NCBI RefSeq assembly: GCF_022549785.1 | Contig: NZ_JAKZGO010000007.1 | Span: forward strand, 62,001 to 126,000 | Direction: 5' to 3' | Source of the DNA: Belliella alkalica | GTDB lineage: Bacteria > Bacteroidota > Bacteroidia > Cytophagales > Cyclobacteriaceae | DNA length: 64,000 bases | In this document: one piece after another, positions 42,312-64,000 of the stretch | How positions within the stretch are numbered: position 1 is the first letter of the stretch | Layout of the letters: every line of letters starts with the position of its first letter | The notes under the pieces: generated by a model | What the model was told of the DNA's origin: nothing | The model's input: only the letters and a program-made list of their open reading frames with translations | Databases searched by the model: none | Translations under genes and position numbers: made by a program

Positions 42312-43607
42312 ATGGATGTTAAATATGTAAATCAATTTTTGAAGGACGTATTCAATTTTAGGCTTGAAAATCCAAAATTGAAAATCAGTTCTAAGTTTAA
42401 GAAATCAGGAAGTCAGGATTTAGATGACTTTATTTCTGAAAACAAGCTATCTGTTGAGGAAGTAGTTTTTCTTCTTTTGACTATGATTCCATATATCAAC
42501 CCCAATTTTTTGATTACAGTATTCAAGGAATCTTATTCTCAAAATTCAGATAACCCATTCATGGGCGGTGTAAAAGGAAAAAACCATCGAGGAATTCTTC
42601 CCAATGCAGAACTGCTTTTATTTTTGCTTGCCGGTGAAGATTTCCAGGCGAGAATGGAATACTTTAAGTTATTGGATGAAAACCATTTATTTTTTAAGAA
42701 AAATATCATTTCTAATTCAAATTCATCAGCTGAAGAGCCATATACTAGTGATGTCATAATGATGACAAAAGAGTATTTGGAGCTATTCATTTTAGGCAAA
42801 AAATATAAGCCTGTCTTAAGCAGTAAATTTCCTGCTCAATTATTAGAGACTCAGCTTGAATGGTCGGATCTGGTGCTCAGCAATACCACATCCAATCAAA
42901 TCAAGGAAATACAGATTTGGCTAACTTACAATAATAAATTACTGAATGACAACTCCTTTGGAAAAAAAATCAAGCAAGGATATGTAGCTCTATTTTTCGG
43001 ACCATCCGGAACAGGCAAAACCCTTACCGCTACCCTACTAGGTAGACATACAGGTAAAGATGTATATAGAATTGATTTGTCTCAAGTAATCTCAAAGTAT
43101 ATAGGTGAAACGGAGAAAAACCTTTCTCTGCTATTTGATGCAGCAAAGGAGCGGGATTGGATTTTATTTTTTGACGAAGCAGATGCTCTTTTTGGTAAAA
43201 GAACTAACGTAAAGGATGCGCATGACAAATATGCAAACCAAGAAGTCTCCTATCTATTACAAAAAATAGAAAGTCATGGTGGTTTGGTTATCCTAGCCTC
43301 AAATTATAAAGGAAATATCGATACCGCATTTACAAGAAGATTCAATTCCATCATTGAATTCGAAATGCCTAAAGTTCCAGAAAGGTTAAAGATATGGCAA
43401 AAGTCCATGCCTGAGCAGCTGCCTTTTGAAAATGAGGAGATTTTGGAGGAAGTGGCAAAAAAATATGAACTCAATGGTGCAAATATCATCAATATCGTGC
43501 ATTACGCTGGATTACAATCTTTGTCTCAAAAAGAAAAAGAAATCAAAACGAATACTCTGATAAGAGGTATCAAAAGGGAATATAAAAAAGAAGGGAAAAT
43601 CATCTAG
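42312..43607 (+). CDS. AAA+ ATPase of the contractile injection system (Afp15-like)
   Basis: From ATG 42312 the protein has 431 residues: a variable N-terminal region (1-200) and an AAA+ core with Walker A GPSGTGKT (about 230-237), Walker B ILFFDEADALFGKR with Asp288, sensor/arginine-finger region (ASNYKGNIDTAFTRRF) and a C-terminal lid. It matches the Afp15/PVC15-type ATPase of extracellular injection systems, needed for assembly or particle maturation in the cytosol; the exact step is not settled. I prefer this start because the frame upstream (to 42219) is not of family type. It is the first gene of the operon, followed after 12 bases by the tail terminator, the reverse of Afp/PVC order where it lies near the end. 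Confidence 0.88.
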   Translation: MDVKYVNQFLKDVFNFRLENPKLKISSKFKKSGSQDLDDFISENKLSVEEVVFLLLTMIPYINPNFLITVFKESYSQNSDNPFMGGVKGKNHRGILPNAELLLFLLAGEDFQARMEYFKLLDENHLFFKKNIISNSNSSAEEPYTSDVIMMTKEYLELFILGKKYKPVLSSKFPAQLLETQLEWSDLVLSNTTSNQIKEIQIWLTYNNKLLNDNSFGKKIKQGYVALFFGPSGTGKTLTATLLGRHTGKDVYRIDLSQVISKYIGETEKNLSLLFDAAKERDWILFFDEADALFGKRTNVKDAHDKYANQEVSYLLQKIESHGGLVILASNYKGNIDTAFTRRFNSIIEFEMPKVPERLKIWQKSMPEQLPFENEEILEEVAKKYELNGANIINIVHYAGLQSLSQKEKEIKTNTLIRGIKREYKKEGKII

Positions 43608-43619
43608 TTAACCAAAACC

Positions 43620-44192
43620 ATGCTCTACGAAACAATCCATATTCTCTCCTCTGACTTAGACAATGCTTTTAGTGAAATGACTGAGCAATCAGGAATAGTA
43701 GATATAAATCATATCAGTCAACTCGATGACGAAAGCAATGCTGACAAAGTAGTTGTCTCTCTTCTGCACATGATGCAAGAATCTACTTTGAAGAATATCC
43801 CAAATGTGGTTCCTGTGGGTACGAGGATGCAACAGATGAATAAAAAAGTTCCTTTAAACCTATTTGTAATGTTCTGTAGCAATTTTATTGGCTATGACAA
43901 TGCACTAAAGAATCTATCCTTCATTATAGAATTCTTCCAAGCAAAGCGGGTTTTTACAGATAAAAACACACATTTCAATAGAGACAGCGAAGAGTTAAGA
44001 AACCTTGGAGATTTCAAATTTACAGTAGAACTGTATAGCCCATCATTTGATGAATTGAATCAAATATGGGGTACAATCGGTGGAAAGCAGATTCTTTCTG
44101 CGATCTATAAAGTGAGTGTATTGCAGCTTGAGATGAGAAAGCCTCAATCTCAATCTGGAATTGTCAGAGATATAATATTGAAAACAAAATAA
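43620..44192 (+). CDS. Tail terminator / cap protein, DUF4255 (Afp16-like)
   Basis: The 190-residue protein has the DUF4255 (Pvc16 N-terminal) pattern: MLYETIHILSSDLDNAF at the start, VSLLHMMQEST and PLNLFVMFCSNFIGYDNALKNLSFIIEFFQ, ending with YKVSVLQLEMRK. It forms the hexameric cap that ends sheath and tube growth at the distal end. Length and motif order are normal for the family. Cotranscribed with the ATPase; the next gene starts 12 bases later. Confidence 0.88.
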   Translation: MLYETIHILSSDLDNAFSEMTEQSGIVDINHISQLDDESNADKVVVSLLHMMQESTLKNIPNVVPVGTRMQQMNKKVPLNLFVMFCSNFIGYDNALKNLSFIIEFFQAKRVFTDKNTHFNRDSEELRNLGDFKFTVELYSPSFDELNQIWGTIGGKQILSAIYKVSVLQLEMRKPQSQSGIVRDIILKTK

Positions 44193-44204
44193 ATCATAAG
44201 CAAT

Positions 44205-45020
44205 ATGTTTACATATCGAACGATTTTTGACTTTCATATTTTCCATGATTACTTTTTGAACAAAGGTCAATCAAGCTACAATGATGCAACAGATGATGAG
44301 AAATCCAAAAGGTTGCAACAGTATGATTTCAATTCTTTTCTGACTTTAAAGCCTACTTCTCAGACAGCAAAACTAATTATCAATCACAGATTGATTACCA
44401 AGCAGTCAATGTCAAATTATTCAATAATTGGAAAAGTTGATGAAGATCAGAATTCACTTATTGAGATTGCACCAACTGAATTTTTCCAATTTTATCTAAT
44501 CCTAAATGATGTTGATTTTTTAAACTACACCTCACTGTCTTTGGATAATCAGAATTATTTGATGCTCACAAATCATCCTCTTTTAGAATATTTACCAGAA
44601 TTAGCAACTCTAGATGACAATCCTATCAGTGACCTTCACTTAGTAAGTAAAGAAATACTAATCAACAATTTAAAAGAAGAAGAAATACTTCCCAATAAAT
44701 GTATTGGAGTTATCTCAATAGCAAGTAGATCTATTTATGATCAACAGAGTCTCTTAGAAGATGATGGCAAACTCAGGCCAAGCCAAAATTTCACAATACA
44801 TTTTCAAAATAGAGCTACTTTCTGGAAATATATCCTAAAGTCCGGAGCTGAATTGACCACAATTCAAGCATTACCACTCACGAAAAATGGCTTCATACCA
44901 ATCACAGAAGAGCATTTGGCAGACTTTGATGATTATGAAGTGGAGTTTCCAAACCCTAACAATTCAAAAATAACCTTAGAAGGTAACCAAGCATATTCAG
45001 AAATATTTATCAACATTTAA
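44205..45020 (+). CDS. Unrecognised eCIS protein, candidate cap adaptor (Alg16B-like)
   Basis: A 271-residue soluble protein with no signal peptide and no domain that I recognise. It begins MFTYRTIFDFHIFHDYF and ends with short beta-type segments (AYSEIFINI). It lies between the Afp16-like cap gene and the sheath gene. AlgoCIS of Algoriphagus machipongonensis has a cap adaptor between cap and tube-sheath; by position and size this protein is the natural candidate, but I have no sequence evidence beyond location. It is certainly a gene: uniform coding character, 12 bases after the previous stop and 15 before the next start. Confidence 0.75.
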   Translation: MFTYRTIFDFHIFHDYFLNKGQSSYNDATDDEKSKRLQQYDFNSFLTLKPTSQTAKLIINHRLITKQSMSNYSIIGKVDEDQNSLIEIAPTEFFQFYLILNDVDFLNYTSLSLDNQNYLMLTNHPLLEYLPELATLDDNPISDLHLVSKEILINNLKEEEILPNKCIGVISIASRSIYDQQSLLEDDGKLRPSQNFTIHFQNRATFWKYILKSGAELTTIQALPLTKNGFIPITEEHLADFDDYEVEFPNPNNSKITLEGNQAYSEIFINI

Positions 45021-45035: not shown

Positions 45036-47021
45036 ATGGCAAGTACGTATAAAACCCCAGGTGTCTATGTGCGGGAAATTTCAAAATTTCCTCCATCCGT
45101 GGCACAAGTAGAAACGGCTATTCCTGCATTTATAGGATATACCGAAAAGGCAAAAAAAGTCAATAATGATGATTTATTGAACAAACCAACCCGCATCACT
45201 TCTGTGCTCGACTATGTGACATATTTCGGCGGAGCTCCTGAAGTAAAAGTAAATTCAATTGATCTCAACCCAACATATGATGTTGTATCTGTTGACATTG
45301 AGGAGAACTACTATATGTATGAAGCCATAAGGTTATTTTATGCTAATGGTGGAGGTCCCTGCTACATTGTCTCAGTAGGGAGATATGGGGCTACAGTCGC
45401 TAATGGTGATGGAATCAGCCCGGGACTTTTACGTGGTTTGGCAGCAGTCAAAAAACAAGATGAACCTACAATTCTTCTTGCTCCAGATGCTGCTATGATG
45501 AGTCAAGGAGATATGAATGTACTACATACTGCAATGCTAAGACAGTGCAATGATCTGCAAGACAGGGTATGTATTTTTGATTTGAAAGAAAATTCAGGAG
45601 AAGATTATGCTACTATCGTAGAAAATTTTAGAAATGGTATTGGGATGAACTTCCTGAAATATGGGGCTGCTTATACCCCATGGCTTAAAGCTAAGCTTCC
45701 AAGGGAAATTTCTTACAAAAATATAAAAGACAAAATCACATCTGGAGGTAATGTCATAACTCTGGATAGATTGGCTACAGATGCTTCAACGGAGGCGGTT
45801 GCTACTAGACTAGATGATTTGATCGATGATTTGTCAGCAATAGAGACGGCCTTGGATACAATAAAAACTGGTAATTTCTCTTCTCTGGATGCAAGAGCAG
45901 AGCGCTTGGCTACAACTCTCAGAGAATCACCTATTCCTGCCAATTTACAAAACCTATTGAATTACTATATTCAGATTATTGACATGATTCGAGATGTCAT
46001 AGATGTTGGAGATCTAGATAATATCACAATAGGAAATAATTCTGGAGAAGGGAATTTATTCGAGGCATTGGTTTCCGATCTGGGTCCATCTGATGCTAAT
46101 GGTGCAATCCACAATATTGTCGACCAAATCAGAAAAATGATAGAAGACAGTGCAGCAGCGAACAATACTTTAAGCCAGCAAGTAACTGAAAATTCGAACT
46201 CAGGTTTGGACTTTGATGTAGCAAGTAATTCCTCTATTGCATATTTTGGAAATGGTGAAGATGATGAAGAAAGAATTGCCCCACATGTTCAGAGTATTAT
46301 AGGGTTTTGGCCTGTTTTAAGATCTTCAGTAGATTTAATCATAAGCACTGCCAAAAACATGATTAACTCGACGCAGGACACCGCTTTGGACAGTATTCCT
46401 GCTTTGAAAAATATTTTCACAACTGTATCCAAAGAGTATCTCACACTACCTCCAAGCGCTGCCATTGCAGGAGTCTATGCAACAGTAGATAGCGATAGAG
46501 GTGTTTGGAAAGCACCTGCAAATGTTTCTCTAAACACTGTAGCTGACGTAACTACATTAATAGACAGACAAATTCAGGATGGATTGAATATCGATACAGT
46601 AGCTGGAAAATCAATCAATGCCATTCGCCCATTTACCGGAAAAGGAATTATGGTCTGGGGTGCGCGTACACTTGCGGGCAATGACAATGAGTGGCGATAT
46701 GTGCCTGTAAGGAGGTTTTTCAATATGGCTGAAGAATCCATCAAAAAAGCAACTGAGCAATTCGTATTCGAACCAAATGATGCAAACACTTGGGTGAAAG
46801 TCCGAGCAATGATCGAAAATTTCCTTATTCTTCAATGGAGGGCTGGAGCACTTGCGGGTGCTACGCCTGACGATGCATTTTATGTCAAAATCGGTCTTGG
46901 CCAAACTATGACTTCCATGGATATCCTCAATGGATACATGATCGTCGAAATTGGAATGGCTGTAGTTAGACCAGCTGAATTCATCGTTTTGAATTTCTCC
47001 CACAAAATGCAGGAATCATAA
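45036..47021 (+). CDS. Contractile sheath protein (Afp2-4 like), single and enlarged
   Basis: The 661-residue protein starts with the classic sheath opening YKTPGVYVREISKFPPSV and ends with the conserved handle domain MTSMDILNGYMIVEIGMAVVRP (in the last 45 residues), with KGIMVWGARTL (about 545) before it. Between about 235 and 455 there is a large insertion rich in helices, Asp and Ser/Thr, which should lie on the outside of the sheath. There is only one sheath gene here, whereas Afp has three. It forms the hexameric, contractile tube around the inner tube. The C-terminal and N-terminal strands that link neighbouring subunits are intact. Confidence 0.92.
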   Translation: MASTYKTPGVYVREISKFPPSVAQVETAIPAFIGYTEKAKKVNNDDLLNKPTRITSVLDYVTYFGGAPEVKVNSIDLNPTYDVVSVDIEENYYMYEAIRLFYANGGGPCYIVSVGRYGATVANGDGISPGLLRGLAAVKKQDEPTILLAPDAAMMSQGDMNVLHTAMLRQCNDLQDRVCIFDLKENSGEDYATIVENFRNGIGMNFLKYGAAYTPWLKAKLPREISYKNIKDKITSGGNVITLDRLATDASTEAVATRLDDLIDDLSAIETALDTIKTGNFSSLDARAERLATTLRESPIPANLQNLLNYYIQIIDMIRDVIDVGDLDNITIGNNSGEGNLFEALVSDLGPSDANGAIHNIVDQIRKMIEDSAAANNTLSQQVTENSNSGLDFDVASNSSIAYFGNGEDDEERIAPHVQSIIGFWPVLRSSVDLIISTAKNMINSTQDTALDSIPALKNIFTTVSKEYLTLPPSAAIAGVYATVDSDRGVWKAPANVSLNTVADVTTLIDRQIQDGLNIDTVAGKSINAIRPFTGKGIMVWGARTLAGNDNEWRYVPVRRFFNMAEESIKKATEQFVFEPNDANTWVKVRAMIENFLILQWRAGALAGATPDDAFYVKIGLGQTMTSMDILNGYMIVEIGMAVVRPAEFIVLNFSHKMQES

Positions 47022-47049: not shown

Positions 47050-47478
47050 ATGAGCTATCCTTTATCCAAGTTTCATTTCTCCGTTGAGTGGGGTGGAACA
47101 AAAATAGGCTTTACAGAAGTCTCAGGTCTAGATTTAGAAACAGAAGTCATTGAGTACAGACATGGCGCCAGCAAGGAATATGGCAAAATAAAAATGCCAG
47201 GTTTGAAAAAAGAAGCCAACATCACCTTGAAAAGAGGAACTTTTGCTTCTGACAATGAATATTTTGCTTGGTACAAAACCATCTCCATGAACAAAGTAGA
47301 AAGACGTGATATCACGATTTCTCTACTCAATGAAGAACATGAACCTGTAGTGGTTTGGCAAGTGAAAAATGCCTGGCCTACAAAAATCCAATCCACCGAT
47401 TTGAAAGCAGATGGCAACGAAGTCGCTATCGAATCTATGGAATTGGTACATGAAGGACTTACCATCAACAACGAATAA
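47050..47478 (+). CDS. Inner tube protein 1 (Afp1-like, T4 gp19/Hcp fold)
   Basis: The 142-residue protein has the gp19-type tube pattern: FHFSVEWGGTKIGFTEVSGLDLETEVIEYRHG near the start (cited to the core SGLDLE), LKRG at the turn, and VAIESMELVHEGL at the end. It stacks in hexamers to form the bulk of the inner tube that carries cargo. It is the best conserved gene of the cluster and should be the most abundant together with the sheath. Confidence 0.93.
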   Translation: MSYPLSKFHFSVEWGGTKIGFTEVSGLDLETEVIEYRHGASKEYGKIKMPGLKKEANITLKRGTFASDNEYFAWYKTISMNKVERRDITISLLNEEHEPVVVWQVKNAWPTKIQSTDLKADGNEVAIESMELVHEGLTINNE

Positions 47479-47480
47479 AT

Positions 47481-47921
47481 ATGACCTACTACCCTCCTGT
47501 CAGCTTTCATTTCAATGTAGAATTTTCGGGTATTACTGCCCAAGAGTTTGACATGCAATTTCAGTCAGTTTCTGGACTGACAGCAGAACTTGATGTAGAG
47601 GAACTAGCTGAGGGAGGTGAAAATAGGTTCAAGCATACTTTACCTGTCAAAAGCAAATATTCAAATCTCGTCTTAAAGCGAGGGATTGTCATTGATTCAA
47701 AACTTATAGATTGGTGTAAAAAAGCAATTGAAGATTTTGAATTCAAACCTATTGATTTGACAATCAAACTTCTCAATGAAAAGCATGAGCCACTTCTAAG
47801 TTGGTCTGTAGCCAATGCAATCCCTGTCAAATGGGAAGTTGATGAATTCAATGCGATGGAAAGTAAAGTAATGATGGAGTCCTTGGAACTCAAGTATAAC
47901 TATTTCAAAGTGATCAAGTAG
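47481..47921 (+). CDS. Inner tube protein 2 (Afp5-like)
   Basis: The 146-residue protein has the same fold: PPVSFHFNVEFSG, SVSGLTAELDVEELAEGGENRF, LKRG and VMMESLELKYNYF. As in Afp, a second, slightly longer tube paralogue follows the main tube protein and should form the tube ring adjoining the baseplate. It starts 2 bases after the stop of tube protein 1. Confidence 0.9.
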   Translation: MTYYPPVSFHFNVEFSGITAQEFDMQFQSVSGLTAELDVEELAEGGENRFKHTLPVKSKYSNLVLKRGIVIDSKLIDWCKKAIEDFEFKPIDLTIKLLNEKHEPLLSWSVANAIPVKWEVDEFNAMESKVMMESLELKYNYFKVIK

Positions 47922-47924: not shown

Positions 47925-48077
47925 ATGCCTATAGAAATCAGAGAACTACACATCAAAATCAATGTGTCTCCTGAAAAAGAAAAGCCAAAATCAAAAGGAG
48001 CCAACTCCAATGGAGAAATGGTTCAGGAAGTTGTAGAGGCTGTTTTGGAAACTTTAGAACGTAAAAAAGAAAGGTGA
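47925..48077 (+). CDS. Small DUF5908 protein of the injection system
   Basis: A 50-residue protein starting MPIEIRELHIKINV, the characteristic DUF5908 opening, with a charged middle (SPEKEKPKSKG) and an amphipathic C-terminal helix (VQEVVEAVLETLERKK). It starts 3 bases after the tube 2 stop and its TGA overlaps the next start (TGATG). DUF5908 proteins occupy this place between tube and LysM genes in eCIS clusters; the function is not known. It is easily overlooked because of its size. Confidence 0.85.
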   Translation: MPIEIRELHIKINVSPEKEKPKSKGANSNGEMVQEVVEAVLETLERKKER

Positions 48078-48769
48078 TGGAAAATTCTGGTTCATTAAAA
48101 AAAATGTTCATCAAAGCTTTTAGCGATGAGGAATTCAAAAATGAAGTTCCAGAAGGAACCTATACAGCGCTTGTCAACCCTGAAAGTTACTCTTTTAATT
48201 ATACAACGGTACAAAATGAAGATCAAGCTCCAGGAACCAGCAGCACACCTCCGAAGTTTAACAAAATACTTCCCCAAGAGCTGACATTTGAGTTTCTTTT
48301 CGACAGAACTGGCGCCATCAAAGACAGTCCAGCTGACCCCAATGGAATAATCGATGACATTGAACATTTCAAGAAAGTCACATTCGATTATCAAGGCGAT
48401 CAGCATCGGCCAAACTATCTTAAGATTGCTTGGGGTTCTTTACTTTTCAAAGGTGTATTAAGTAGTCTGGATATCAATTTCAAGCTATTCAGGGCAGATG
48501 GAACACCGCTAAGAGCCACAGCTAGTCTTGCAGTAACTGGTTTTGTGGAGGACAATTTGAGAGTGGCTTTGGAAAATAATCAGTCTCCTGACTTGACCCA
48601 TTTCAGAGAGGTCAAGCACGGAGATACACTGCCCTTGATGACCAATCGGATCTATGGAGACTCCAAGTACTATTTGGAAGTCGCCAAAGCGAATAGGATC
48701 TATGATTTTAGAGGTCTGAAAGTTGGAACACAAATCTATTTTCCACCAATTGAAAAGTTAAGTAAATGA
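48077..48769 (+). CDS. LysM-domain baseplate/tube adaptor (Afp7-like)
   Basis: The 230-residue protein has the Afp7/gp53-like N-domain (TALVNPESYSFNYTTVQ, QELTFEFLFDRTG) and a C-terminal LysM domain (about 175-228, VKHGDTLPLMTNRIYGDSKYY ... IYFPP; quoted in part). It connects tube, hub and baseplate. The ATG at 48077 overlaps the preceding stop; a GTG one codon upstream is less likely. Its own TGA overlaps the start of the spike gene (ATGA). Confidence 0.9.
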   Translation: MENSGSLKKMFIKAFSDEEFKNEVPEGTYTALVNPESYSFNYTTVQNEDQAPGTSSTPPKFNKILPQELTFEFLFDRTGAIKDSPADPNGIIDDIEHFKKVTFDYQGDQHRPNYLKIAWGSLLFKGVLSSLDINFKLFRADGTPLRATASLAVTGFVEDNLRVALENNQSPDLTHFREVKHGDTLPLMTNRIYGDSKYYLEVAKANRIYDFRGLKVGTQIYFPPIEKLSK

Positions 48770-50508
48770 GTAATTCCGAAACCATCAATACAAGCAGAAG
48801 TGCAGATTTGGTTACAGTCACTGTTTCTATCGATGGAACAGAACTGTCGAGCGTATTTCAGCTGCTGAATGTAACTGTCCACAAAGAGGTCAATAGAATT
48901 CCGATGGCGAAGCTTGTCTTTTCTGATGGTGATCCCGCTACGAGGGATTTTGAATTGAGCAATATGCAGGAAATGATGCCAGGAAAACAGATTGAAATTT
49001 CGGCTGGATACCACAGTGATGAAGCTGTAATATTCAAAGGCCTCATCATCAAGCATCAGATCAAAGTCAAGGGAACATCCTCGTTATTGATTGTAGAATG
49101 CAAAGACCAAGCAGTCAAATTGACTGTGGGCAAAAAGTCCAAAACCTTTCATGACATGAGTGATAGTGATGCTATGGAAGCTATACTATCCAATTATCCT
49201 TTGACTTCTGAAGTTGCCTCAACAAATTTTACGCATAAAAAATTGGTGCAATACGACAGTACGGATTGGGATTTTCTAGTATCAAGAGCTCAAGCTTGTG
49301 GAAAATTGTGTTTTGTGTCCGATGGAATGATCAAAGTATCTGCTCCTGATGTGGATACAGATGTAATTCAAAAGGTAACCTATGGAGCCAATATTCTTGA
49401 TTTTGATGCAGAAATGGATGCGAGAAATCAATTTAAAAAAATCACTGCACAAACTTGGGATGGTCCTAGACAAGAAATTATTGAAGTAGAAAAAGAGCTT
49501 GAAAACCTTTCCCTTCATGGAAATTACAGCAATTCAGACTTGGCGAATGTCATAGGTTTGGAAAAACTCGAATTAAAAAATGGTGGAAATATTCCTGACG
49601 AGCTTTTACAAGATTGGACTGAAGCCACCATGCTTTATCAATCCCTTTCAAAAGTAAGGGGAAGAGTGAAATTCCAAGGAATTCCAGAACTACTTCCTAA
49701 TACCTGCATAGAACTCGAAGGTTTGGGAGAAAGACTCTCTGGAAAAGCTTGGGTTTCAGGTGTTTTTCATCAAATCAATGATGGCAACTGGACTGTTGAT
49801 GTTCAGTTTGGATTGAATCCAGAATGGTTTTCAGAGACCTATCCAATCCATTCATCACCAGCTTCTGCCCTACTTCCGGCCGTCAAAGGCTTACAAATTG
49901 GGGTAGTAAGCCAGTTGGAAGATCCCGATGGAGAAGATAAAATTTTAGTCAAAATCCCCATTATCAACTCTGAAGATGAAGGTGTTTGGTGTAGAGTTTC
50001 TTCCCTAGATGCTGGTGAAAGCAGAGGTGTATTCTTCAGACCTGAAATTGGTGACGAGGTGGTTGTTGGCTTTTTGAATGAAGATCCAAACCAACCAATT
50101 GTATTAGGAGGATTGCATAGCAGTGCCAAACCGGCTCCTATAACTGGAAATGATGATAATCACGAGAAAGGAATTATAACTCGGAGTGAGTTGAAAATTA
50201 CATTCAATGATGAAACCAAGACTATTACGATAGAAAGTCCAGGAGGAAAAAAAATTGCACTAGATGAAAATGCCCAAAATATATCTATTGAAGATGAAAA
50301 CAACAACCAAATCATCTTAGACGCTGATGGAATTCAGATCATATCAGGTAAAGACCTTCAATTCAAAGCATCAGGAGACGTAAATATCGAAGGGATGAAT
50401 GTAACAGGTAAAGCAAGTGCACAACTCACAGTCGAAGGTAGTGGCGGTGCCGAAATCAGTAGCAGTGCCTCAACAGTAGTCAAAGGAAGTATTGTTCAAA
50501 TCAATTAA
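48766..50508 (+). CDS. VgrG-like hub/spike protein (Afp8-like)
   Basis: The 580-residue protein has a gp27-like hub (about 10-350, with VSIDGTELSSVFQLLNVTVH, STDWDFLVSRAQACGKL), a gp5 OB-fold (about 370-455, VSQLEDPDGEDKILVKIP, DEVVVGFLNEDPNQPIVLGG) and a C-terminal triple beta-helix spike (about 470-580, ISIEDENNNQIILDADGIQI). It forms the trimeric central spike below the tube. It carries no extra effector domain. Confidence 0.92.
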   Translation: MSNSETINTSRSADLVTVTVSIDGTELSSVFQLLNVTVHKEVNRIPMAKLVFSDGDPATRDFELSNMQEMMPGKQIEISAGYHSDEAVIFKGLIIKHQIKVKGTSSLLIVECKDQAVKLTVGKKSKTFHDMSDSDAMEAILSNYPLTSEVASTNFTHKKLVQYDSTDWDFLVSRAQACGKLCFVSDGMIKVSAPDVDTDVIQKVTYGANILDFDAEMDARNQFKKITAQTWDGPRQEIIEVEKELENLSLHGNYSNSDLANVIGLEKLELKNGGNIPDELLQDWTEATMLYQSLSKVRGRVKFQGIPELLPNTCIELEGLGERLSGKAWVSGVFHQINDGNWTVDVQFGLNPEWFSETYPIHSSPASALLPAVKGLQIGVVSQLEDPDGEDKILVKIPIINSEDEGVWCRVSSLDAGESRGVFFRPEIGDEVVVGFLNEDPNQPIVLGGLHSSAKPAPITGNDDNHEKGIITRSELKITFNDETKTITIESPGGKKIALDENAQNISIEDENNNQIILDADGIQIISGKDLQFKASGDVNIEGMNVTGKASAQLTVEGSGGAEISSSASTVVKGSIVQIN

Positions 50509-50519: not shown

Positions 50520-50810
50520 ATGGGAATGCCAGCAGCTAGAATAAACGATATGCATGTTTGTCCAATGGTAACAGGAAATGTCCCGCATGTGGGAGGCCCA
50601 ATTCTTCCTCCTGGAGAGCCAACAGTCTTGATTGGTGGCATGCCTGCAGCGAGAGTTGGCGACATGGCTACTTGTACTGGGCCACCTGATAGCATAGTAG
50701 CGGGTTCGGCCACAGTCATGATCGGAGGAATGCCAGCTGCTAGATTGGGAGATAGTACAGCACATGGTGGCTCTATCGTATTGGGTGAATTTACAGTATT
50801 AATTGGATAA
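50520..50810 (+). CDS. PAAR-repeat spike tip (Afp10-like)
   Basis: The 96-residue protein consists of PAAR repeats (GMPAARINDMHVCP, GGMPAARVGDMATC, GGMPAARLGDSTAHGG) with His/Cys residues placed to bind one zinc ion at the tip. It sharpens the spike. No effector extension is present. Confidence 0.93.
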   Translation: MGMPAARINDMHVCPMVTGNVPHVGGPILPPGEPTVLIGGMPAARVGDMATCTGPPDSIVAGSATVMIGGMPAARLGDSTAHGGSIVLGEFTVLIG

Positions 50811-50812: not shown

Positions 50813-51223
50813 ATGGATAATAACAAGCCGTTTTTGGGACGCGGATGGTCTTTCCCACCTACATTCAATAACAGATCTGGCTCGCTTAAAATGCTTAGTG
50901 GTGAGGAAGATATAGACAGTAGTTTAGAAATCTTACTTTCTACCAAACAAGGAGAGCGAATAATGCATCCCAATTTTGGGTGCAATTTGGAGGAGTTGTT
51001 ATTCAACCCACTTGACAGGACTTTGATTACTTATGTGTCTGATTTGATCAAAACGGCAATTCTGTACTACGAACCAAGAATAGATGTGCAAAAAATCGAT
51101 ATCTACGAGGATGACATCATCAATGGGAAGATCATTATTGATGTAGAGTATCTCGTCAGAGCTACAAATTCAAGAAAAAATAAGGTTTTCCCTTATTATA
51201 AAGATGAAGGAATAGAAATCTAA
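50813..51223 (+). CDS. gp25-like baseplate wedge protein (Afp9-like)
   Basis: The 136-residue protein has the gp25/TssE pattern GWSFPPTF, LLSTKQGERIMHPNFGCNLEELLF and the conserved YYEPRIDV. It starts sheath assembly at the baseplate. In Afp the gp25-like gene comes before the PAAR gene; here the order is reversed. The gap to the PAAR gene is 2 bases. Confidence 0.92.
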   Translation: MDNNKPFLGRGWSFPPTFNNRSGSLKMLSGEEDIDSSLEILLSTKQGERIMHPNFGCNLEELLFNPLDRTLITYVSDLIKTAILYYEPRIDVQKIDIYEDDIINGKIIIDVEYLVRATNSRKNKVFPYYKDEGIEI

Positions 51224-54200: not shown

Positions 54201-54386
54201 CATAAAAGTCAGATTCTATATTTCATTGAAAATCTGAGTTATATAGACTATATATCAAAGCTTGAATTGAGGATTGACAACAAGCCAATAGAGAACACAG
54301 TAAGGGCAACTTCCCCAAGTAATATTATCGTGAGTGATGAATCTCATTTGGTATCTCTGTCCATTGATAATTGTTCAAAAGTATAA
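51231..54386 (+). CDS. Baseplate protein, gp6/J-like (Afp11-like), 1051 residues
   Basis: The C-terminal part has the baseplate J / Afp11 signature (about 829-870, NNFYRRVSERLRHKNRAITQ then WDYEHLILEAFPDLILVKCLNH) and the following VVVPSTRQF region. The long N-terminal part (about 1-750) has no motif that I know and consists of beta-rich segments, larger than typical Afp11. AlgoCIS has a cage formed by large extensions of its baseplate; this extension may correspond (inference). The Afp12-like gene starts 4 bases after the stop. Confidence 0.88.
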   Translation: MSSSDSNILSILKRNGSSQSSRYRKDLDPDQLELMGFGVEDWILFAYNFAQKLNFYDNNNEIEGNWDKFFQELSLNPSKLIYESNFDLEEIKTQLKSILSQYQVNGELSPHLTLFISFLKVLETSRSKFNQLTKKHLDFYYTEVLKMEKLPPSSDSVYVILELTKKALNQRIEAQTLFNAGKNKEGKPLIYVNPEESSINSIEVKSIKNIFHDKKRKRIKESVLLDIEDGESDTLQNKQSWWPFGHTDSNDVLLQNPTIGFLVSSSILLLNEGQRTIKITFTFGASLNFNFEQFISIFEVYITTEKEWIQIENEQINKINGSNTQLALEIELANNFPSVTPFVSEDLFLNKVNSLPALKFILDTSSPIGYSIFQELTTKKLQNLKIQVIVEGVKNILLENDQTTLNPQKPFYPFTTRPFKGSSFSFSYPEAFSKNCKNLNLKFDWKNTPEGFAKHYETYVLEAKNNVASTTFMGILNLSILNISPIAQKLEKLEIEDSRDLKGLEILKKENIGDDVQRMQLRQSATSSSSTPIVNNDSYFKYKSELLVNGIVLKGLNSIDETIFIEDNGDYNFKYKINNQISKLPNAKIRVNLQQSFLHEIYPKIYAMVLTSESDSKILPNEPYTPLASDLSFGYEAEVVFEQNSIENKIIQIHPFGFSEWEDKLLISSQYNQAGYLYIGLENAKPRDILSLLFQLDEGTENPLSVDMEPIRWATLSNNTWQNLPKESILLNETLNFLRSGIVKIELPSVIDTNNTLFAPGLFWIRAQLLGAHDAVCRCINIHSQAVRLQALDSLQATHLPGKLENGVISKFEKRVSHFKNVSQPYASFGGRGLETDNNFYRRVSERLRHKNRAITQWDYEHLILEAFPDLILVKCLNHTSPTCFNAPGHVTIVVVPSTRQFDTEKIIYPRVSSGKLEEIKMFVSRYISPAIEIHVINPDYEKLSITVNIKILQGLDFNFYQNQLKKDITNFLSPWAFENNILLNFNKEFHKSQILYFIENLSYIDYISKLELRIDNKPIENTVRATSPSNIIVSDESHLVSLSIDNCSKV

Positions 54387-57054: not shown

Positions 57055-60000
57055 ATGAAACTTCAAAACATCACTTCAGACTATAAATCTTTTGCAGATA
57101 ATCAGCTTCTGACAGCAGCACAGCTCAATCTGCTCGTACAATATCTGGACAATCAAGACAGGTTATCTAGACTTGCCCTTACGGGTGCTGGTATTGTCTG
57201 TGGTATGGAAGTTTCCCTTTCAGACGATGTTTTGACCATAAGTCAAGGAACTGCTTTGACTACAGATGGGGATCTGATCAAGCTTAGAAATAAAAATTCA
57301 AATTCAAAAAAATCACCTATAGCTATTCAGGGAATTGATTTTGTAGCCTATTTACCTTTCAGTAATCACAAGGTTCAGTATGAACCATTTTTGGAATCAA
57401 AGGAATCATACATCCCAATTTTGGAATTGCTCACAGAAGAAGAAGCCAAGAGTTTTCCATCTTCAAAAAACATTTCAGATATCAAAATCAATGATTATGT
57501 AGTGGTTCTGTACCTGGAAAATTATACAAAACCTTATGATGTCTGCAACGAATCTGATTGCGATAGTCAAGGAATTCCTGAGATTTCCAGACTTCGCTAT
57601 TTTTTGATTGACAAAGAAAATGTAGGAAAAGTAGTCTTAAAAAATGACACAATTTTCAATCAATTTGGAAAAATCAAAGACCTCACAGGAAAAAATGTAA
57701 AGATAGAAAGAGTGATTGCCTCTACTCTTATTCAAAAAGAGTCCATTTACTTGGAGAAATATAATGATGTAGCAAAAGAAGCAACCATTAGATTCAATCA
57801 AGCTTGTAAAGATTTATTCGAAATTTTGGGTAAAAGCTTCGGTTTTGAATTGCCTTTATCATTGAAAGCCAGAAATATTTTTGTTCCAAAACCATTCCCA
57901 AATGCTCAATACAACTATGATTTTTTACTTGACTTAATGGCTACTTATGATGAAATCAAAGACTTGACACTTAAAATAGATTCTATATGCAACCATGAAA
58001 TTAACTCGTTTCCAAAACATATTCTTTTGGGAACCATTGAGGATGATTCAATCAGACATGGTTTTTACAAATCTTCGGCTTTGGCAAATGATCAAAATGT
58101 GAAAGGAAAAATCAACATGCTTCTTAATCGATTAGATGCCATGGTGACGAATTTTAATGGTGGTAGAAATATCGAAATCCAAATCAGACCTTCTAAACTA
58201 TGCGCTAATCTTAGTGAAAAAGCCATACCAAGATATTATCTCGAAAATTCACCATTGAGAAAAAACTGGAAATTTGGATCAACTGAAAGAGATCAGCAAG
58301 AAATCAACAGTGAAAAAGACTTGGGCTTTGACCTTTCCTGCAAAGATTTCTTTAGAATTGAAGGAGCTTTCGATTTAAACTGGGCTACAGCATTGGATGC
58401 TATCCTTAAGAAAAAGGTAGAATATGGATTGAATTTCGATGTGGTCTGCCTCAATTCTGAAATGGAAATGAAGGATTTGGATTTAAATGATTTCCCGGTT
58501 TTGTTTAAAGATCTTCAGACGAATCTATCTGCATGGCGAGCACAACAGATTTGCTTACTTCAAACAGCGACTACATTTTTGACAGGCTTCAGTACAAAAG
58601 CGGATGGTGGCCACAATCATGTAAAGGACTATTTTATAAGAGAAACTTTTGTGAGTGCTGTGTACGAAAATCCAGTTGGTTCATTTAGGGATATTTATGG
58701 GATGACTTCCAGTACTGAAAAGGCAAAAACAACTGAGGTTAAATCTGAATTACCGAAAGAAGAGTCAAGAAAAAAGAGTACATCAAACGCTGATTTATAC
58801 AATGTAGTCAACATTGCAGGTACTAGAAAACTTGATGTAGTCGAAGAAGCTCACTATTACAAACAACCTACTTCTTATTTCCCAATTACAAAAGGTGCAG
58901 AAGATATTGGAAAGGGTTTCGAGTCTTTCAATGAGGTAAAAGGAAATTATTCATTCCATGATTTAGTCGCCATTTATGAAGGTCAACTAGTAAGTGTAAT
59001 ACCAGATTTGAAAAATTGGGCTGAGGTAGATAAGGAAATGAGAGTCACCTTCCCTACCAAGCTAATGGCAGCTATTCAAACGTTGAATAAGGAATTTCCA
59101 ACAAACATAAATTTCATCAACGAAGCAAAACTTGGGTCTTTTGAAGCTGCTTTGGATAACCTATGCAAACTGACTAATGAAGCATTTAATTTCATTTCAG
59201 AAACTATCAATGACGCAGGAAATGATTATGTCAAAAAGGATTTTGAAGACCATTACTTGGCTATATTGAATAGGTTGAAAGAAAATTGCTGCGCTGGTGA
59301 TTTTTTGAAAGTGATATTCCAAGAAACAATTGATAGAAAAAAGAGGATTTTAGAAGATACCAGATTTTCAAATTTTGTAGCAAAGCATCCAGGTTTGGAA
59401 CACATGGCCGGTGTGCCGAATGCAGGTACTTTTGTTTTGCTTTACAATGCCAAAACCAATAGGGTTATTGCAGACTTTGCCCTCCCCTATATTTGCTGCT
59501 CCAAAAATGCTCCTATTGCATTTATGGTCACGCCACCTATCGAAGATAAAGAAGATGTTCAGTTTGATATAGAACCTACGATCTGTAAGCGAGATAAGGA
59601 AACAGTCAAGGTTCCATTTGAAATCATTCCGCAAGATGCTGAAATTAACCTAGCGACCCCTTTCAAAGGACTTTCCATCAAAAATAACATACTTTCCATT
59701 GATCAGAATTTCAAAGATTTTGAAATTCCAATACAGTTTGTTTCAGCTGGTAAATTACTCGAAAAATCAATCAAAGTAATTCAAAAAGGCTTACTTGAAC
59801 TCAGCTATGAGTTTGACAAAGAAAGAGAAGCTTTTATTGTCAAATCGAATTTACCCTATGCCAATTATCAATGGTACATAAATGAAAAGGAATTTAAAGG
59901 AGAGAGTTCTGAATATTTGATAATCGACAAAGAATTCAAGAAGGAAATCAAAGTCTCTTTAATGGTCGAGACACCTTGCGGAAAAGAAGAGTCACAAATA

Positions 60001-61041
60001 TCTATCAATCCGCCAATTGAAGATGAGGAAGCAATTAGCTTTAGTATAGAACCTCAGCATTGTAAAGACCCAAAAAATCAAGACTCGATACCATTTTCGC
60101 TAGTTCCAAATAGGACTAAAATTTCATTGGAATCAGATTATTCTGGTCTCAGTATAAATGGCAATAATCTAATTATCACAGCAGAATTTGATGCTTACGA
60201 TAAGCCCATTTATTTCATCCTCAATGGTCAAAAATCAAAGCAAAGCATCACCATAATTGAGCAGAAAGAATTAGTCTTAAGTCACCAATACATAGCTGAA
60301 AGTAATCTTCATGTAATTACTTCAAATATCTCAGTGGAGGAATTTCACTGGACTTTTAACAAAAAGAAAATCACTTCAGAGACATCAGAAAAAATAGAAT
60401 TGACTGATTTCAATGCAGGAAAAAATTCTGTAAGCTTATCTATCCAAACGGAATGTGGCTTGCTGACTACTGATATTGAATTTGATCACAAAGGTAAAGA
60501 AGAAAGTGATTGCTCTTCGAAAGCTTTGGAGCGACTTTCAACTTTAAAAGTAAATCTTGCAAGACTTATTGGTAGATCTGAACTAAGAGTTTCAATTGAA
60601 AAAGATCTTAGCGCACTAAGTGAGTTTGTTCAAGACTTTGAAAAAAATACCAAGAGCTATATTTCTGGAAACAACTTAGGGAATTTTAGTGGTATTCATA
60701 ATTCATTTGAAAACCTCAATAGCAAGGTATTCGATGAGCGATTCTTTAATCACCGAGAAGTAATCATAGAAGTTTATAAAATCAGTCTGGAAATGGTTTA
60801 TGCCATGATGACGTGCATTGATGGGAAAGTTTTGGAAGAGATGTCGGGAGCCTTTAATATGCTTTTCAATACCATTGAAAACCATCTCAAAAACCCTGAA
60901 TACACTAAGATGTTGCTTGCATTGCGAAATCTTATTGAAGAGTTAATTGAATTCAGAATAAAAAATGGAGCAAATGACAATGAAGATATTTTGATCATTC
61001 ATTTAAGTAGGCTACTTTCAATTCTAAAAGAACTGGGATGA
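57055..61041 (+). CDS. Unrecognised 1328-residue eCIS protein with duplicated Ig/PKD-like domains
   Basis: The N-terminus (about 1-90, DNQLLTAAQLNLLVQYLDNQ ... GAGIVCGMEV) resembles, by recall, the start of a protein commonly found after Afp12 genes in Bacteroidota clusters; I know no function. A middle region (about 90-800) is mostly helical. Two repeat units follow at about 827-985 and 986-1144; each begins PPIED-E, contains a Cys near EP-C, ends with a PKD/Ig-like part (YANYQWYINEKEF / VEEFHWTFNKKKI) and a closing ETPCG / QTECG. The last 180 residues are helical. No tail-fibre gene was found elsewhere in the visible cluster, so this protein could be a surface or fibre component; that is inference. 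Its stop overlaps the next start by 4 bases. Confidence 0.85.
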   Translation: MKLQNITSDYKSFADNQLLTAAQLNLLVQYLDNQDRLSRLALTGAGIVCGMEVSLSDDVLTISQGTALTTDGDLIKLRNKNSNSKKSPIAIQGIDFVAYLPFSNHKVQYEPFLESKESYIPILELLTEEEAKSFPSSKNISDIKINDYVVVLYLENYTKPYDVCNESDCDSQGIPEISRLRYFLIDKENVGKVVLKNDTIFNQFGKIKDLTGKNVKIERVIASTLIQKESIYLEKYNDVAKEATIRFNQACKDLFEILGKSFGFELPLSLKARNIFVPKPFPNAQYNYDFLLDLMATYDEIKDLTLKIDSICNHEINSFPKHILLGTIEDDSIRHGFYKSSALANDQNVKGKINMLLNRLDAMVTNFNGGRNIEIQIRPSKLCANLSEKAIPRYYLENSPLRKNWKFGSTERDQQEINSEKDLGFDLSCKDFFRIEGAFDLNWATALDAILKKKVEYGLNFDVVCLNSEMEMKDLDLNDFPVLFKDLQTNLSAWRAQQICLLQTATTFLTGFSTKADGGHNHVKDYFIRETFVSAVYENPVGSFRDIYGMTSSTEKAKTTEVKSELPKEESRKKSTSNADLYNVVNIAGTRKLDVVEEAHYYKQPTSYFPITKGAEDIGKGFESFNEVKGNYSFHDLVAIYEGQLVSVIPDLKNWAEVDKEMRVTFPTKLMAAIQTLNKEFPTNINFINEAKLGSFEAALDNLCKLTNEAFNFISETINDAGNDYVKKDFEDHYLAILNRLKENCCAGDFLKVIFQETIDRKKRILEDTRFSNFVAKHPGLEHMAGVPNAGTFVLLYNAKTNRVIADFALPYICCSKNAPIAFMVTPPIEDKEDVQFDIEPTICKRDKETVKVPFEIIPQDAEINLATPFKGLSIKNNILSIDQNFKDFEIPIQFVSAGKLLEKSIKVIQKGLLELSYEFDKEREAFIVKSNLPYANYQWYINEKEFKGESSEYLIIDKEFKKEIKVSLMVETPCGKEESQISINPPIEDEEAISFSIEPQHCKDPKNQDSIPFSLVPNRTKISLESDYSGLSINGNNLIITAEFDAYDKPIYFILNGQKSKQSITIIEQKELVLSHQYIAESNLHVITSNISVEEFHWTFNKKKITSETSEKIELTDFNAGKNSVSLSIQTECGLLTTDIEFDHKGKEESDCSSKALERLSTLKVNLARLIGRSELRVSIEKDLSALSEFVQDFEKNTKSYISGNNLGNFSGIHNSFENLNSKVFDERFFNHREVIIEVYKISLEMVYAMMTCIDGKVLEEMSGAFNMLFNTIENHLKNPEYTKMLLALRNLIEELIEFRIKNGANDNEDILIIHLSRLLSILKELG

Positions 61042-62501
61042 AAGAAGAGCTGATCATTGTAGAAAAATTGGCAATTGACGTACAGATACAGTCCAAACTA
61101 ACTTCAAAACAAATCATGAAGGATACTGAACTGTTTGTATATAAACATGTCCTACCCCTTCTAGAAAAAATCCTACTCAATTATAAGTTTAAGGGTAATC
61201 TAAGGATAAATGCAGCTGAACTTGAGATTGATCTCAAAAGTCTAATCACAAATAAATCTATTTTTGGGTTTAATGAAGCACAGCTAGAAACAGAAATGAA
61301 GAGAAAGTTAGATCAACTAATTCTTTCTAAAATTGATTCAAAAAGACCAATAGCTGAAACTTCAAAAGGCATTATTGAAATATTGATATACTTTCTGTCA
61401 AATGGCTCCCTACCATGGTTTGCGCCAAGAAATTATAATTTGGATACGGAATTAAGGCAGTTTTTGAAAACTAAGAATCTAAAAACCTCCCAAAAGAAGT
61501 TGATTTCCCAATTAAAAATCACCTTCCAAAAGAATCCTAAAACCTTTCTAAGATTCATCAAACAGATTGAAAATGAATTGATATTTCAAATTTTGACTTT
61601 TGGTCAAAAAACAACATTTTCTCCATTAGAAAGCAAAACAATCATAAAGCAAGCTCAATCAAAAAATAGAGTTTTGGTTTGGGCATTGGTATTTTATAAA
61701 TCATGGTTTTTTCCTTCCAAATCAACAGCAATCTTAAACGAGATCATTCCAGATTTAAGAAGACTTGAGTACAAGGAATTCATAAAATTGACTAGGTCAC
61801 TATCTTTTGTAGGCAATAATACATCAGACAACTCTGTCAATCCAATTTCATCTTTACTAAAGTTAACTGACTTTGTAATTTTTCAGCAGCTTTTCAACCC
61901 GAGGTTACGAGAAAAAGAGTTTTTTGAATTTCTAAAAAGTGAAAACAAAAGTATGGTCAAAGAAAAACCAAAAGAAAAAGTTGAGGAGAAAAAAGCAGCT
62001 GAAAAACAAGCAACAATTTATATTGATAATGCAGGATTGATTATCATCCATCCTTTTCTCCTTAATTTCTATAAAAAAATCGGTGTTTTAGATAAAAAAA
62101 ATAGCATTCCAAAAGAAAGTTATGACCTCGCAATTCATTCGTTGCATTATCTCTCAACTGGAAAATCCTATGCATATGAGCATAGTTTGGTATTTGAAAA
62201 ATTCCTATGTGGAGTACCTATAGAATTTTCGGTTGATAGGTTCTTTGAATTAGAAACAAATATAAAGGAAGAAGCAAATAGTCTTTTGATGGCTGCAATA
62301 GGTCATTGGGGGAAATTAAAAAACACATCACCTGAGGGTTTGAGAGAGTTATTTTTCACAAGAGAAGGAAAACTTGAATTAGAAAGTAAAAGATTAACAA
62401 TCAAGAGAATGTCTCAGGATATTCTTCTTGAATCATTGCCATGGAATCTTTCAATCGTAAAGTTTCCTTGGTTGAAGAATAGCCTATTTGTTCATTGGTA
62501 A
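61038..62501 (+). CDS. Contractile injection system tape-measure family protein (CIS_TMP)
   Basis: The 487-residue protein matches the CIS_TMP family: N-terminal IIVEKLAIDVQIQSKL, then a region with a K/E-rich linker (about 310-325, KEKPKEKVEEKKAAEKQ), YIDNAGLIIIHPFLLNFYKK (about 330-350), AIHSLHYLSTGK, FLCGVPIEF and the C-terminal NTSPEGLRELFFTREGKLEL ... SLPWNLSIVKFPWLK. It is thought to set sheath length or to assist cargo loading, but its large non-repetitive form makes the ruler role uncertain. It begins inside the last codon of the 1328-residue protein gene (ATGA). Confidence 0.88.
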   Translation: MKEELIIVEKLAIDVQIQSKLTSKQIMKDTELFVYKHVLPLLEKILLNYKFKGNLRINAAELEIDLKSLITNKSIFGFNEAQLETEMKRKLDQLILSKIDSKRPIAETSKGIIEILIYFLSNGSLPWFAPRNYNLDTELRQFLKTKNLKTSQKKLISQLKITFQKNPKTFLRFIKQIENELIFQILTFGQKTTFSPLESKTIIKQAQSKNRVLVWALVFYKSWFFPSKSTAILNEIIPDLRRLEYKEFIKLTRSLSFVGNNTSDNSVNPISSLLKLTDFVIFQQLFNPRLREKEFFEFLKSENKSMVKEKPKEKVEEKKAAEKQATIYIDNAGLIIIHPFLLNFYKKIGVLDKKNSIPKESYDLAIHSLHYLSTGKSYAYEHSLVFEKFLCGVPIEFSVDRFFELETNIKEEANSLLMAAIGHWGKLKNTSPEGLRELFFTREGKLELESKRLTIKRMSQDILLESLPWNLSIVKFPWLKNSLFVHW

Positions 62502-62508
62502 ATAAAAA

Positions 62509-64000
62509 ATGTCAGTTGTAGCAAGCCATATAGAAAAACCAAAAACTAAAAATCGGTCAACTAATTCTCCAAATAAGGAAAGTCAGTCATTGATCGATTC
62601 AAAACCTATATGGTCTGAAAACTCACTTAATTTGGATCAAGATATGCTCTTGGATGATACTTCCAATTCATTTTTGCTCCAAGATTCCCTTTTTCCTGCT
62701 ACTGAATCTAGTGCATCAAGTGGTAATACAAATTCCTCTCTTACTTCAGAAGCAGCAAGTTCTTCCTCAGAAAATACAGACCAACCAACTGTAGAAATTC
62801 CAGAAATGGAAATTTTGCAAGGCGAATCAAATGCTGAAGGTCAAGCTGTTGAAACTTCAAATGAGGAAGCAATTTCCTATCCAAGTTCTCCTTATGAAGA
62901 TCCAGCTTTCAATGCGCTAGTCAATGCCAGTGAGCAAGTTGCAGCACAGACTTCCCAACATGAAAATCCTGAAGTAGAATCTCAAAGAGCCCAAAGAGCT
63001 GCTCCTATCGCAGCAAACGAAAGTATGGGTGCTGCCCAAACAAGTCAGGTTGAAGCGATGGCTGCCCAAGAGCCTAATGAATTTGATGCAGCTGGTTTCA
63101 AAGCAGCCTTGATGGCTCAGATTGCGCAGATGCAACTACCTGCAAATGCCGAAGAAGCTACAGAATTTGATCAACACAACAACCTCTCAGAAATTCAGGA
63201 AAACGCTACTTCACAAGTAAACCAAGAGCAAGAACAATCAGCTGGCCCAATAGCAGCATCAAGTGAAGCTGAACCCGATGTGGATGCAGTTGTAGCGCGG
63301 GAAATCGAAGAAATACCTGCTCCAAATATCGGTGAAACTCCTGCGAGTATCTCGGCAAATCGATCAATGCCAAGCCCAAGACCAGAGAGTCAGGTAAGCA
63401 CTCCACTTCAAGACAATGTTCAGGAAGTTGAGCAACAGATGGAGAGCAATAATATCAGTGAGCAGCAACTTGCAAATGCAAATGAACCTAGTTTTTCCAA
63501 AGCTTTAAGCTCTAAGGAATCTGCAAAAGAACATGCAAATTCAGCTCCTGAACAATTTAGAGCAGGAGAGCAATCTACCTTAGGAGCTACGGCAGCTTCT
63601 GCCGAAAATATCAGTCAAGGCCAGCTTCAAGAGATGCATGGAGACAGGCAAGCTTCTTTCGAAGGATTGGCACAGACACAAGAGCAAACAGGTGCAAATG
63701 ATTCCGCTGAAAGGACAAGAATAGCTGCTGACATCAATGCGATTTATGTAAAGACAAAAACCAAAGTAGAAGGCATTCTCAATACTTTGGAAGAAAAAGT
63801 CACGCAGATGTTCACCGAAGCCGCTACCAAAGCGAAGCAATTATTTGAGCAATATGTGGATAGAAAAATGCGCGCTTACAAAGCTGAGCGCTATAGTGGT
63901 TTAGATGGCGCAGCAAGATGGGCATATGATAAACTTGCTGGTATGCCTGATGAAGTCAATGATTTTTTCACTGAAGGAAGACAAGTTTACATAGATTACA
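62509..64000 (+). CDS. Large disordered/helical eCIS-associated protein, 3' truncated by window edge
   Basis: The frame starts at ATG 62509, 7 bases after the tape-measure gene, and is open to the end of the window (at least 497 residues). Residues 1-400 are low-complexity, rich in Gln, Ala, Glu, Ser and Asn, without Cys, and predicted disordered. From about 400 it becomes helical and charged (IAADINAIYVKTKTKVEGIL ... RYSGLDGAARWAYDKLAGMP). By recall, such helical segments occur in very long proteins next to CIS_TMP genes, sometimes carrying eCIS cargo or DUF4157 domains. It may be tape measure or cargo; the C-terminal end would decide. Its stop lies outside the window. Confidence 0.75.
   Translation, partial: MSVVASHIEKPKTKNRSTNSPNKESQSLIDSKPIWSENSLNLDQDMLLDDTSNSFLLQDSLFPATESSASSGNTNSSLTSEAASSSSENTDQPTVEIPEMEILQGESNAEGQAVETSNEEAISYPSSPYEDPAFNALVNASEQVAAQTSQHENPEVESQRAQRAAPIAANESMGAAQTSQVEAMAAQEPNEFDAAGFKAALMAQIAQMQLPANAEEATEFDQHNNLSEIQENATSQVNQEQEQSAGPIAASSEAEPDVDAVVAREIEEIPAPNIGETPASISANRSMPSPRPESQVSTPLQDNVQEVEQQMESNNISEQQLANANEPSFSKALSSKESAKEHANSAPEQFRAGEQSTLGATAASAENISQGQLQEMHGDRQASFEGLAQTQEQTGANDSAERTRIAADINAIYVKTKTKVEGILNTLEEKVTQMFTEAATKAKQLFEQYVDRKMRAYKAERYSGLDGAARWAYDKLAGMPDEVNDFFTEGRQVYIDY

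Follow-up and report, generated by a model that had tools for sequence, protein, structure and literature searches.

The window analysed here is a stretch of 64,000 nucleotides of Belliella alkalica DNA (bases 62001-126000 of a 252,292-base contig), from an assembly that is rated 100% complete in 105 contigs. It contains 16 plus-strand genes in a row (42312-66423), the last of which is an open reading frame (ORF) that extends beyond the window end. By its parts, this operon is a complete extracellular contractile injection system (eCIS) of the AlgoCIS type. The particle is an ordinary machine of that type, and the unusual part is the last gene, which probably encodes its cargo. A first-pass annotation had described 16 consecutive plus-strand genes with overlaps or gaps of less than 30 bases, starting at ATG 42312. 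All of these ORFs are present, no earlier in-frame ATG precedes ATG 42312 in the ATPase gene, and the intergenic gaps run from -4 to 28 bases, given ATG 54391 as the start of Alg12. This start was chosen because it agrees with the homologues; the alternative, GTG 54334, would create a 53-base overlap.

Pfam named 12 genes above its curated cut-off (AAA, Pvc16_N, sheath with two domains, gp19 tube twice, DUF5908, CIS_tube, Phage_base_V, PAAR, GPW_gp25, Baseplate_J and CIS_TMP), and three long ORFs that had no decisive Pfam match (cap adaptor, Alg12 and tail fibre) were placed via solved structures. For the 15 genes other than the cargo gene, the best E-values ranged from 2.2e-14 to 1.5e-209, far above chance. 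The comparison with the PDB took in nine structural proteins and left out the ATPase, plug, Alg7, PAAR, gp25 and tape-measure proteins; an AlgoCIS entry (7adz, 7aeb, 7aef or 9wt0) was the top match for all nine, with E-values from 1.6e-25 to 1.5e-209, and the earlier assignment of the parts to an AlgoCIS-type eCIS is thereby borne out.

The first gene (42312..43607) encodes an AAA ATPase (Pfam AAA, 4.3e-26), which is of the Alg15/Pvc15 type by position and family and is probably the cargo-loading ATPase. It is followed by the cap protein Alg16A (43620..44192; Pvc16_N, 3e-27; 7adz cap protein, 1.3e-44) and by a protein that the first-pass annotation had left unnamed and that has no Pfam match, identified here as the cap adaptor Alg16B (44205..45020; 7adz cap adaptor, 1.6e-25, residues 3-269). 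The sheath protein Alg2 (45036..47021) carries the Pfam sheath domains, matches the 7adz sheath at 2.2e-146 and is the sole Phage_sheath_1 match genome-wide, as expected from the earlier call of a single sheath gene. The inner tube Alg1 (47050..47478; gp19, 3.5e-49; 7adz, 9.2e-82) and the tube initiator Alg5 (47481..47921; gp19; 7aeb_Y, 5.9e-69) precede a DUF5908 protein (47925..48077; 2.2e-14), which is equated with the plug Alg6 by position and size only. The next protein, in the Alg7 position (48074..48769), had been called a LysM protein; Pfam names it CIS_tube (1.2e-52), and no LysM match was found in it.

The baseplate genes comprise the VgrG-like spike Alg8 (48766..50508; 7aef_q, 1.5e-209), the PAAR tip Alg10 (50520..50810; Pfam, 4.2e-28), the gp25-like Alg9 (50813..51223; Pfam, 9.1e-25), the baseplate J-like Alg11 (51231..54386; 7aeb_G, 9.9e-191) and the baseplate wedge Alg12 (54391..57036; 7aeb_A, 9.7e-208). 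The Alg11 homologue is 1051 aa long versus 1050, and it aligns in two stretches, the better of which corresponds to Alg11 510-1039 and partly covers the cage region 278-643 (domain IV). A tail fibre of 1328 aa, homologous to Alg19, is encoded at 57055..61041 (9wt0_a, 9.6e-99, best stretch residues 2-804), inside the window and not past position 64000, where a fibre gene had been expected. The 1443-aa chain of 9wt0 is labelled 'PKD domain-containing protein' and is taken here, from the entry and its title, as the Alg19 tail fibre. The CIS tape-measure protein of 487 aa (61038..62501; CIS_TMP, 8.1e-91) completes the structural set. The baseplate and tape-measure calls of the earlier annotation were thus upheld by Baseplate_J, by CIS_TMP and, for Alg12, by structure, and head, packaging and lysis genes, of which it had seen none, were likewise not found by Pfam among 19 neighbouring ORFs scanned.

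The last gene (62509..66423) begins 7 bases past the tape-measure gene and encodes 1304 aa, of which the first 497 residues lie in the window (62509..64000). Cargo genes had been expected past position 64000, and this gene looks like the payload, although it had not been recognised as such. Residues 1 to ~390 are S/E/Q/A-rich, of low complexity and disordered-looking by eye, and residues ~406-595 are predicted, with fair to good confidence, to form long helices. A hydrophobic helical core of ~300 residues follows (residues 600-905; 64306-65223, plus strand), and the protein ends in an endonuclease-like tip (residues 991-1304; 65479-66420, plus strand). We consider it likely that the operon codes for an extracellular contractile injection particle of the AlgoCIS type together with one large cargo protein that consists of a carrier core and an exchangeable endonuclease-like tip.

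The window tip shares 44% identity with the one in genome G096, 40% with the one in G066 and 34% with the one carried by a Tenacibaculum protein; the proteins of G066 and Tenacibaculum both pass the cut-off for PF13930. Residues H170, D174, N186, N195 and E203 of the tip are invariant in all seven aligned rows, a set that we take to fit a beta-beta-alpha-metal nuclease. These features suggest that the tip is endonuclease-like and may act as a nuclease. No immunity gene was seen adjoining the cargo gene, behind which the space to the next, opposite-strand gene is 156 bases in B. kenyensis (G143) and 50 bases in G096. This might hint at a non-kin target; the hint is weak because eCIS toxins are frequently without immunity genes (PMC8213781).

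The core of the window cargo has no Pfam match, and NCBIfam returned nothing of use across five cargo proteins. In two relatives, weak Pfam matches below the cut-off touch the core (DUF6040 in G096 and a methyltransferase model in G002). When the core was used for a profile search of the PDB, only two designed chains came back; 15 aligned core rows share 16 invariant columns. The window and B. kenyensis share 86% identity in the core, compared to 68% in Alg12, 49% in the fibre and 39% in the tape-measure protein, and their tips have no BLAST match; in this comparison the core outlasts its surroundings.

A derivation of the core from phage tape-measure proteins was considered, and homology is not claimed, since a reversed-sequence control matches too. 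Up to 13 of 15 cores matched one tape-measure family in PHROGs (best 7.8e-12, with E-values up to 1 counted), and reversed cores matched tape-measure families in four of four cases (best E 0.0017, 1.8e-6, 7.2e-5 and 7.5e-5), while a symporter from the window did not; for the same four cores, the forward E-values were below the reversed ones. The core model had no match to a viral structure at E <= 0.001, the best match, named tail tape measure, having an E-value of 9.1e-3 and a TM-score of 0.15. The window core had no match in 50,697 phage records (E <= 0.01), and a pattern scan of IMG/VR gave 89 stretches and no relatives. In the open-licence literature, no Bacteroidota contractile-injection nuclease effector linked to a tape measure was found.

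Within the family Cyclobacteriaceae, the core occurs in 12 of 148 sampled genomes, and all 12 also match the sheath (1.2e-5 with kinship ignored, which is an overstatement). A scan of genome contigs, many of them metagenome bins, found 34 core loci in Flavobacteriaceae, other Bacteroidota, Cyanobacteriota, Pseudomonadota, Ilumatobacter (Actinomycetota) and a Chloroflexi fragment, and 26 of these have at least one window-type eCIS gene in the DNA examined. Plasmid records held 35 further cores, mostly from Streptomyces and also from Deinococcus and others (three inspected). A core tree was built from 45 cores, the 49 found less one that was split, one that was cut off and two that were partial, and it carries a long-branch warning. 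In this tree the Belliella and G096 cores form a group (support 96/94) with cores from Flavobacterium, Aquimarina, Dokdonia and one of the G010 copies, and nine further rows from the same family lie outside it. At least three changes of the family label are required on well-supported branches, and therefore the core has probably moved between lineages.

The tips were compared in 49 core-bearing frames with a core score >= 200, of which 47 have a tip; the duplicates L039 and L047 of B. calami (G108) and B. kenyensis were excluded. Clustering by BLAST (E <= 1e-3, >= 40 residues, last 190 residues at most) divided the 47 tips into 20 clusters. Among 303 pairs with a core identity of 50% or more, the two tips belong to different clusters in 263, at core identities of up to 97% (the pairs are non-independent). 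'Different' here means different by BLAST, as the window and B. kenyensis tips both still match PF13930. When Pfam was applied to 21 core-bearing proteins, 12 matched PF13930 (5 above the cut-off), one Ntox15 and one a DddA-like deaminase, and 7 had no named tip; the named families presumably all act on nucleic acid. Our data indicate that the tip has been swapped in evolution, on a core that would be a reusable carrier.

Some loci have additional frames near the cargo. Behind the core cargo of a G010 locus (L029 10658-19660), there are two shorter ORFs whose ends resemble the cargo end and that look, by eye, like spare tips; each is preceded by a neighbour gene of 461 aa. In Flavobacterium sp. 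SUN046 (L042 8108-13961), a full cargo gene is followed by an ORF that starts within the core and has a tip of the same cluster, a possible spare cassette. In Kordia algicida (L059 8135-12054), the cargo frame is split into two overlapping ORFs, and it is whole in two other Kordia.

DUF4157 was reported in 51.5% of predicted eCIS toxins, with a chaperone role in cis or trans suggested (Danov et al., PMC11297309), and its role in eCIS cargo is stated as unknown in PMC8213781 and PMC11297309. By Pfam, there is no DUF4157 in the window cargo, nor was it found in the cargo of G143, G096, G072, three G010 copies, L040, L042, L045, L054, L093 and L095. At the level of whole genomes, PF13699 (DUF4157) had no match in the window genome (G000), G108, G143, G040 and G096, among 10 searched, and none in the genomes of L042 and L043, among 19 searched with L050 not included and with completeness figures absent. 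These statements of absence rest on Pfam because a small in-house DUF4157 profile misses degenerate copies (Caballeronia, Sphingomonas). The idea that the absence is itself a rarity was rejected, as 16 of 61 sheath-matching genomes have no DUF4157, one of them 88% complete. The Belliella lineage has kept the whole AlgoCIS-type particle as well as a cargo, its genome gives no match to DUF4157, and it offers a natural test of whether DUF4157 is needed in loading.

Window proteins were mapped onto eleven loci, in which some small genes are masked by antisense ORFs or piece boundaries; an antisense ORF masks one tube gene in both the window and B. calami. The operon order is identical in the window, B. 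calami and B. kenyensis, and these three Belliella and G096 share the order ATPase, caps, sheath, tubes, baseplate, fibre, tape-measure, cargo. The first-pass annotation had counted the ATPase-first order as a likeness to AlgoCIS. This part of its argument fails: ATPase-first is not the common order of the AlgoCIS-type loci compared, because the ATPase gene lies behind the tape-measure gene in seven of seven sister loci (G138, G047, G034, G095, G123, G031 and G146). It also lies behind one or more DUF4157 genes in six of these, and in G034 it is found between the tape-measure and DUF4157 genes. A gene of 288-291 aa, tetratricopeptide-like by eye, lies between the DUF4157 cargo and the ATPase in G138, G047, G095, G123 and G031. 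The operons of Belliella and G096 contain neither this gene nor a DUF4157 gene, and their cargo slot, directly behind the tape-measure gene, is the place of the DUF4157 protein in five of the seven sister loci. The AlgoCIS locus tags (fibre 12705, cargo 12695 and 12690; PMC8894135) are consistent with a fibre before cargo order. ATPase position as a strict lineage mark has limits, since its placement varies: in Dokdonia and one Aquimarina (L040, L041, L043 and L045), the ATPase and cargo genes are upstream of the caps, mostly behind a tape-measure gene. A muramidase gene (PF11860) was also seen between cargo and ATPase in G146 (L035 15734-16558) and in G047, of the same genus; PF11860 had no match across the four Belliella genomes.

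The operon occupies one site in Belliella. In B. calami and B. kenyensis it is flanked by a WYL gene and a DUF4301 gene, and in G096 it sits at a different chromosomal place from these two genes. Among the four sampled Belliella, one (G040) is without the operon and has no sheath match; there, the 388-aa homologue of window 40412-41590 and the WYL-regulator gene, which borders the operon on its opposite flank, are 106 bases apart. Downstream of the window cargo, after 314 bases, there is a 125-aa PD-(D/E)XK_3 gene (66738-67115; PF13366), and a tandem array that repeats every ~144 bases at 67003-67864 (L002 3239-4365 spans gene and array); in B. kenyensis there is no space behind the cargo for this gene and array. 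A further array, repeating every 8 bases (68991-69163; L002 5492-5664), has the WYL gene on one side and a DUF5777 gene on the other.

Related machines are common in the family, which includes both Belliella and Algoriphagus, since 61 of the 148 sampled genomes match the sheath, 56 the CIS tape-measure family and 51 DUF4157/eCIS_core. Six genomes (G005, G022, G061, G080, G102 and G144) have a DUF4157 match and no sheath match, and two of them (G022 and G102) have the CIS tape-measure family. An eCIS was reported in 69% of sequenced Algoriphagus (PMC8213781). In the open-licence literature, nothing was found on contractile injection in Belliella or Cyclobacteriaceae beyond a single taxonomic paper.

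If the cargo role is correct, the system may work as follows. The particle would assemble in the cytoplasm, and the AAA ATPase would load the cargo, N-terminus first, into the tube lumen, in a genome in which no DUF4157 partner was found. The role of the ATPase is modelled on Pvc15 (PMC11495950), and a lumen cargo with a predicted disordered N-terminus was reported for AlgoCIS (PMC8894135). Particles would leave the producing cell, the Alg19-type fibre would bind the target, and contraction of the sheath would expel the cargo. The conserved hydrophobic helical core may then help the tip to cross a membrane, as suggested by its hydrophobic helices and by proposals made for Tme and Sle1, and the endonuclease-like tip would attack nucleic acid. 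A wider proposal, which we put forward tentatively and would not call probable, is that the core is a cross-phylum, unnamed carrier that moves nucleic-acid-acting toxin tips across the target membrane after injection, without DUF4157, and that DUF4157 is dispensable for loading in a whole lineage of AlgoCIS-type machines. A core with exchangeable tips that resemble nucleic-acid enzymes would be a defined protein piece for testing the membrane step.

Several observations weigh against an injected, lumen-loaded nuclease. The cargo role is deduced from position and architecture; the Pfam match of the tip to PF13930 (2.4e-4) is below the cut-off; its AlphaFold model has block pLDDT values of 31-48 where the conserved residues lie, and it gave no hit to the PDB at E <= 0.001; and the core model, all-helical, is poor (mean pLDDT 63.8). 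The last gene could encode a structural or scaffolding protein with a coincidental or degenerate nuclease-like tip, which would agree with the sub-threshold match and the empty structure searches. We regard this as quite improbable, as relatives carry tips that score above the cut-off for PF13930, Ntox15 or the DddA-like family, the tip residues are conserved, and tips are swapped between near-identical cores, which would be needless in a structural part. Loading into the lumen is also not the sole option, because Pne1 of the MACs was suggested not to sit in the tube (PMC6748791). As to the core, 8 of the 34 loci have no window-type eCIS gene in the DNA examined, mostly on short contigs, and a Streptomyces anulatus plasmid (L093 7297-10530) carries a core with a DddA-like deaminase tip, for which the gene table, incomplete and with many hypothetical proteins, names no CIS gene within 9 kb. 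The core may for this reason not be tied to injection systems, and a restriction of the core to eCIS was dropped.

The machine might instead stay in the producer, in a cytoplasmic form or one like the type VI secretion system (T6SS) subtype T6SSiv, so that the nuclease would hit the producer or a cell in contact with it, a mode that has been put forward for a Streptomyces CIS. Clade Ib includes both eCIS and T6SSiv (PMC8894135), and Tme of S. davawensis is described as a nuclease effector active within its own population (PMC11126660). We consider this mode unlikely: an Alg19-type fibre is encoded here, and AlgoCIS, with Alg19, is described as free particles. As the first-pass annotation had noted for a T6SS membrane complex, IcmF/TssM has no match in the genome; this concerns one family, is compatible with other T6SS types and has little bearing on T6SSiv. 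That the operon is a remnant or silent, for which one could cite the Belliella genome without the system and with its two flanking genes adjacent, is extremely improbable, as 16 of 16 frames are open and the same order is kept in B. calami and B. kenyensis. The reading we prefer is the AlgoCIS-type particle with a single, tip-exchanging cargo protein.

Among known systems, the closest is AlgoCIS of Algoriphagus machipongonensis, a clade Ib eCIS from the same family, Cyclobacteriaceae. It is similar in its single sheath, cap adaptor and Alg19-type fibre. It differs in that it has two DUF4157 cargo proteins, compared to one without DUF4157 in Belliella (PMC8894135), and the Belliella ATPase gene is placed first, in contrast to the seven sister loci of the family. 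An Alg19 homologue is absent from AFP/PVC and from the MACs according to PMC8894135. The remaining systems were compared by description only. The MACs of Pseudoalteromonas luteoviolacea are also of clade Ib and have a nuclease effector, Pne1; unlike Belliella, they lack the Alg19 homologue, and Pne1 is suggested to be outside the lumen. Tme of the Streptomyces davawensis CIS is similarly a long effector that has hydrophobic helices and disordered regions and ends in an EndA-like endonuclease; in contrast, it has an N-terminal DUF4157 and sits upstream of the baseplate genes (PMC11126660). Sle1 of Streptomyces lividans resembles the Belliella cargo as a CIS effector without DUF4157 and with varied C-termini (PMC13277306), but it is paired with the DUF4157 protein Sle2, and no such partner was found in the Belliella genome. 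The Belliella system appears, from these comparisons, to depart from AlgoCIS, Tme and Sle1 as described in that neither cargo nor genome has a DUF4157 match.

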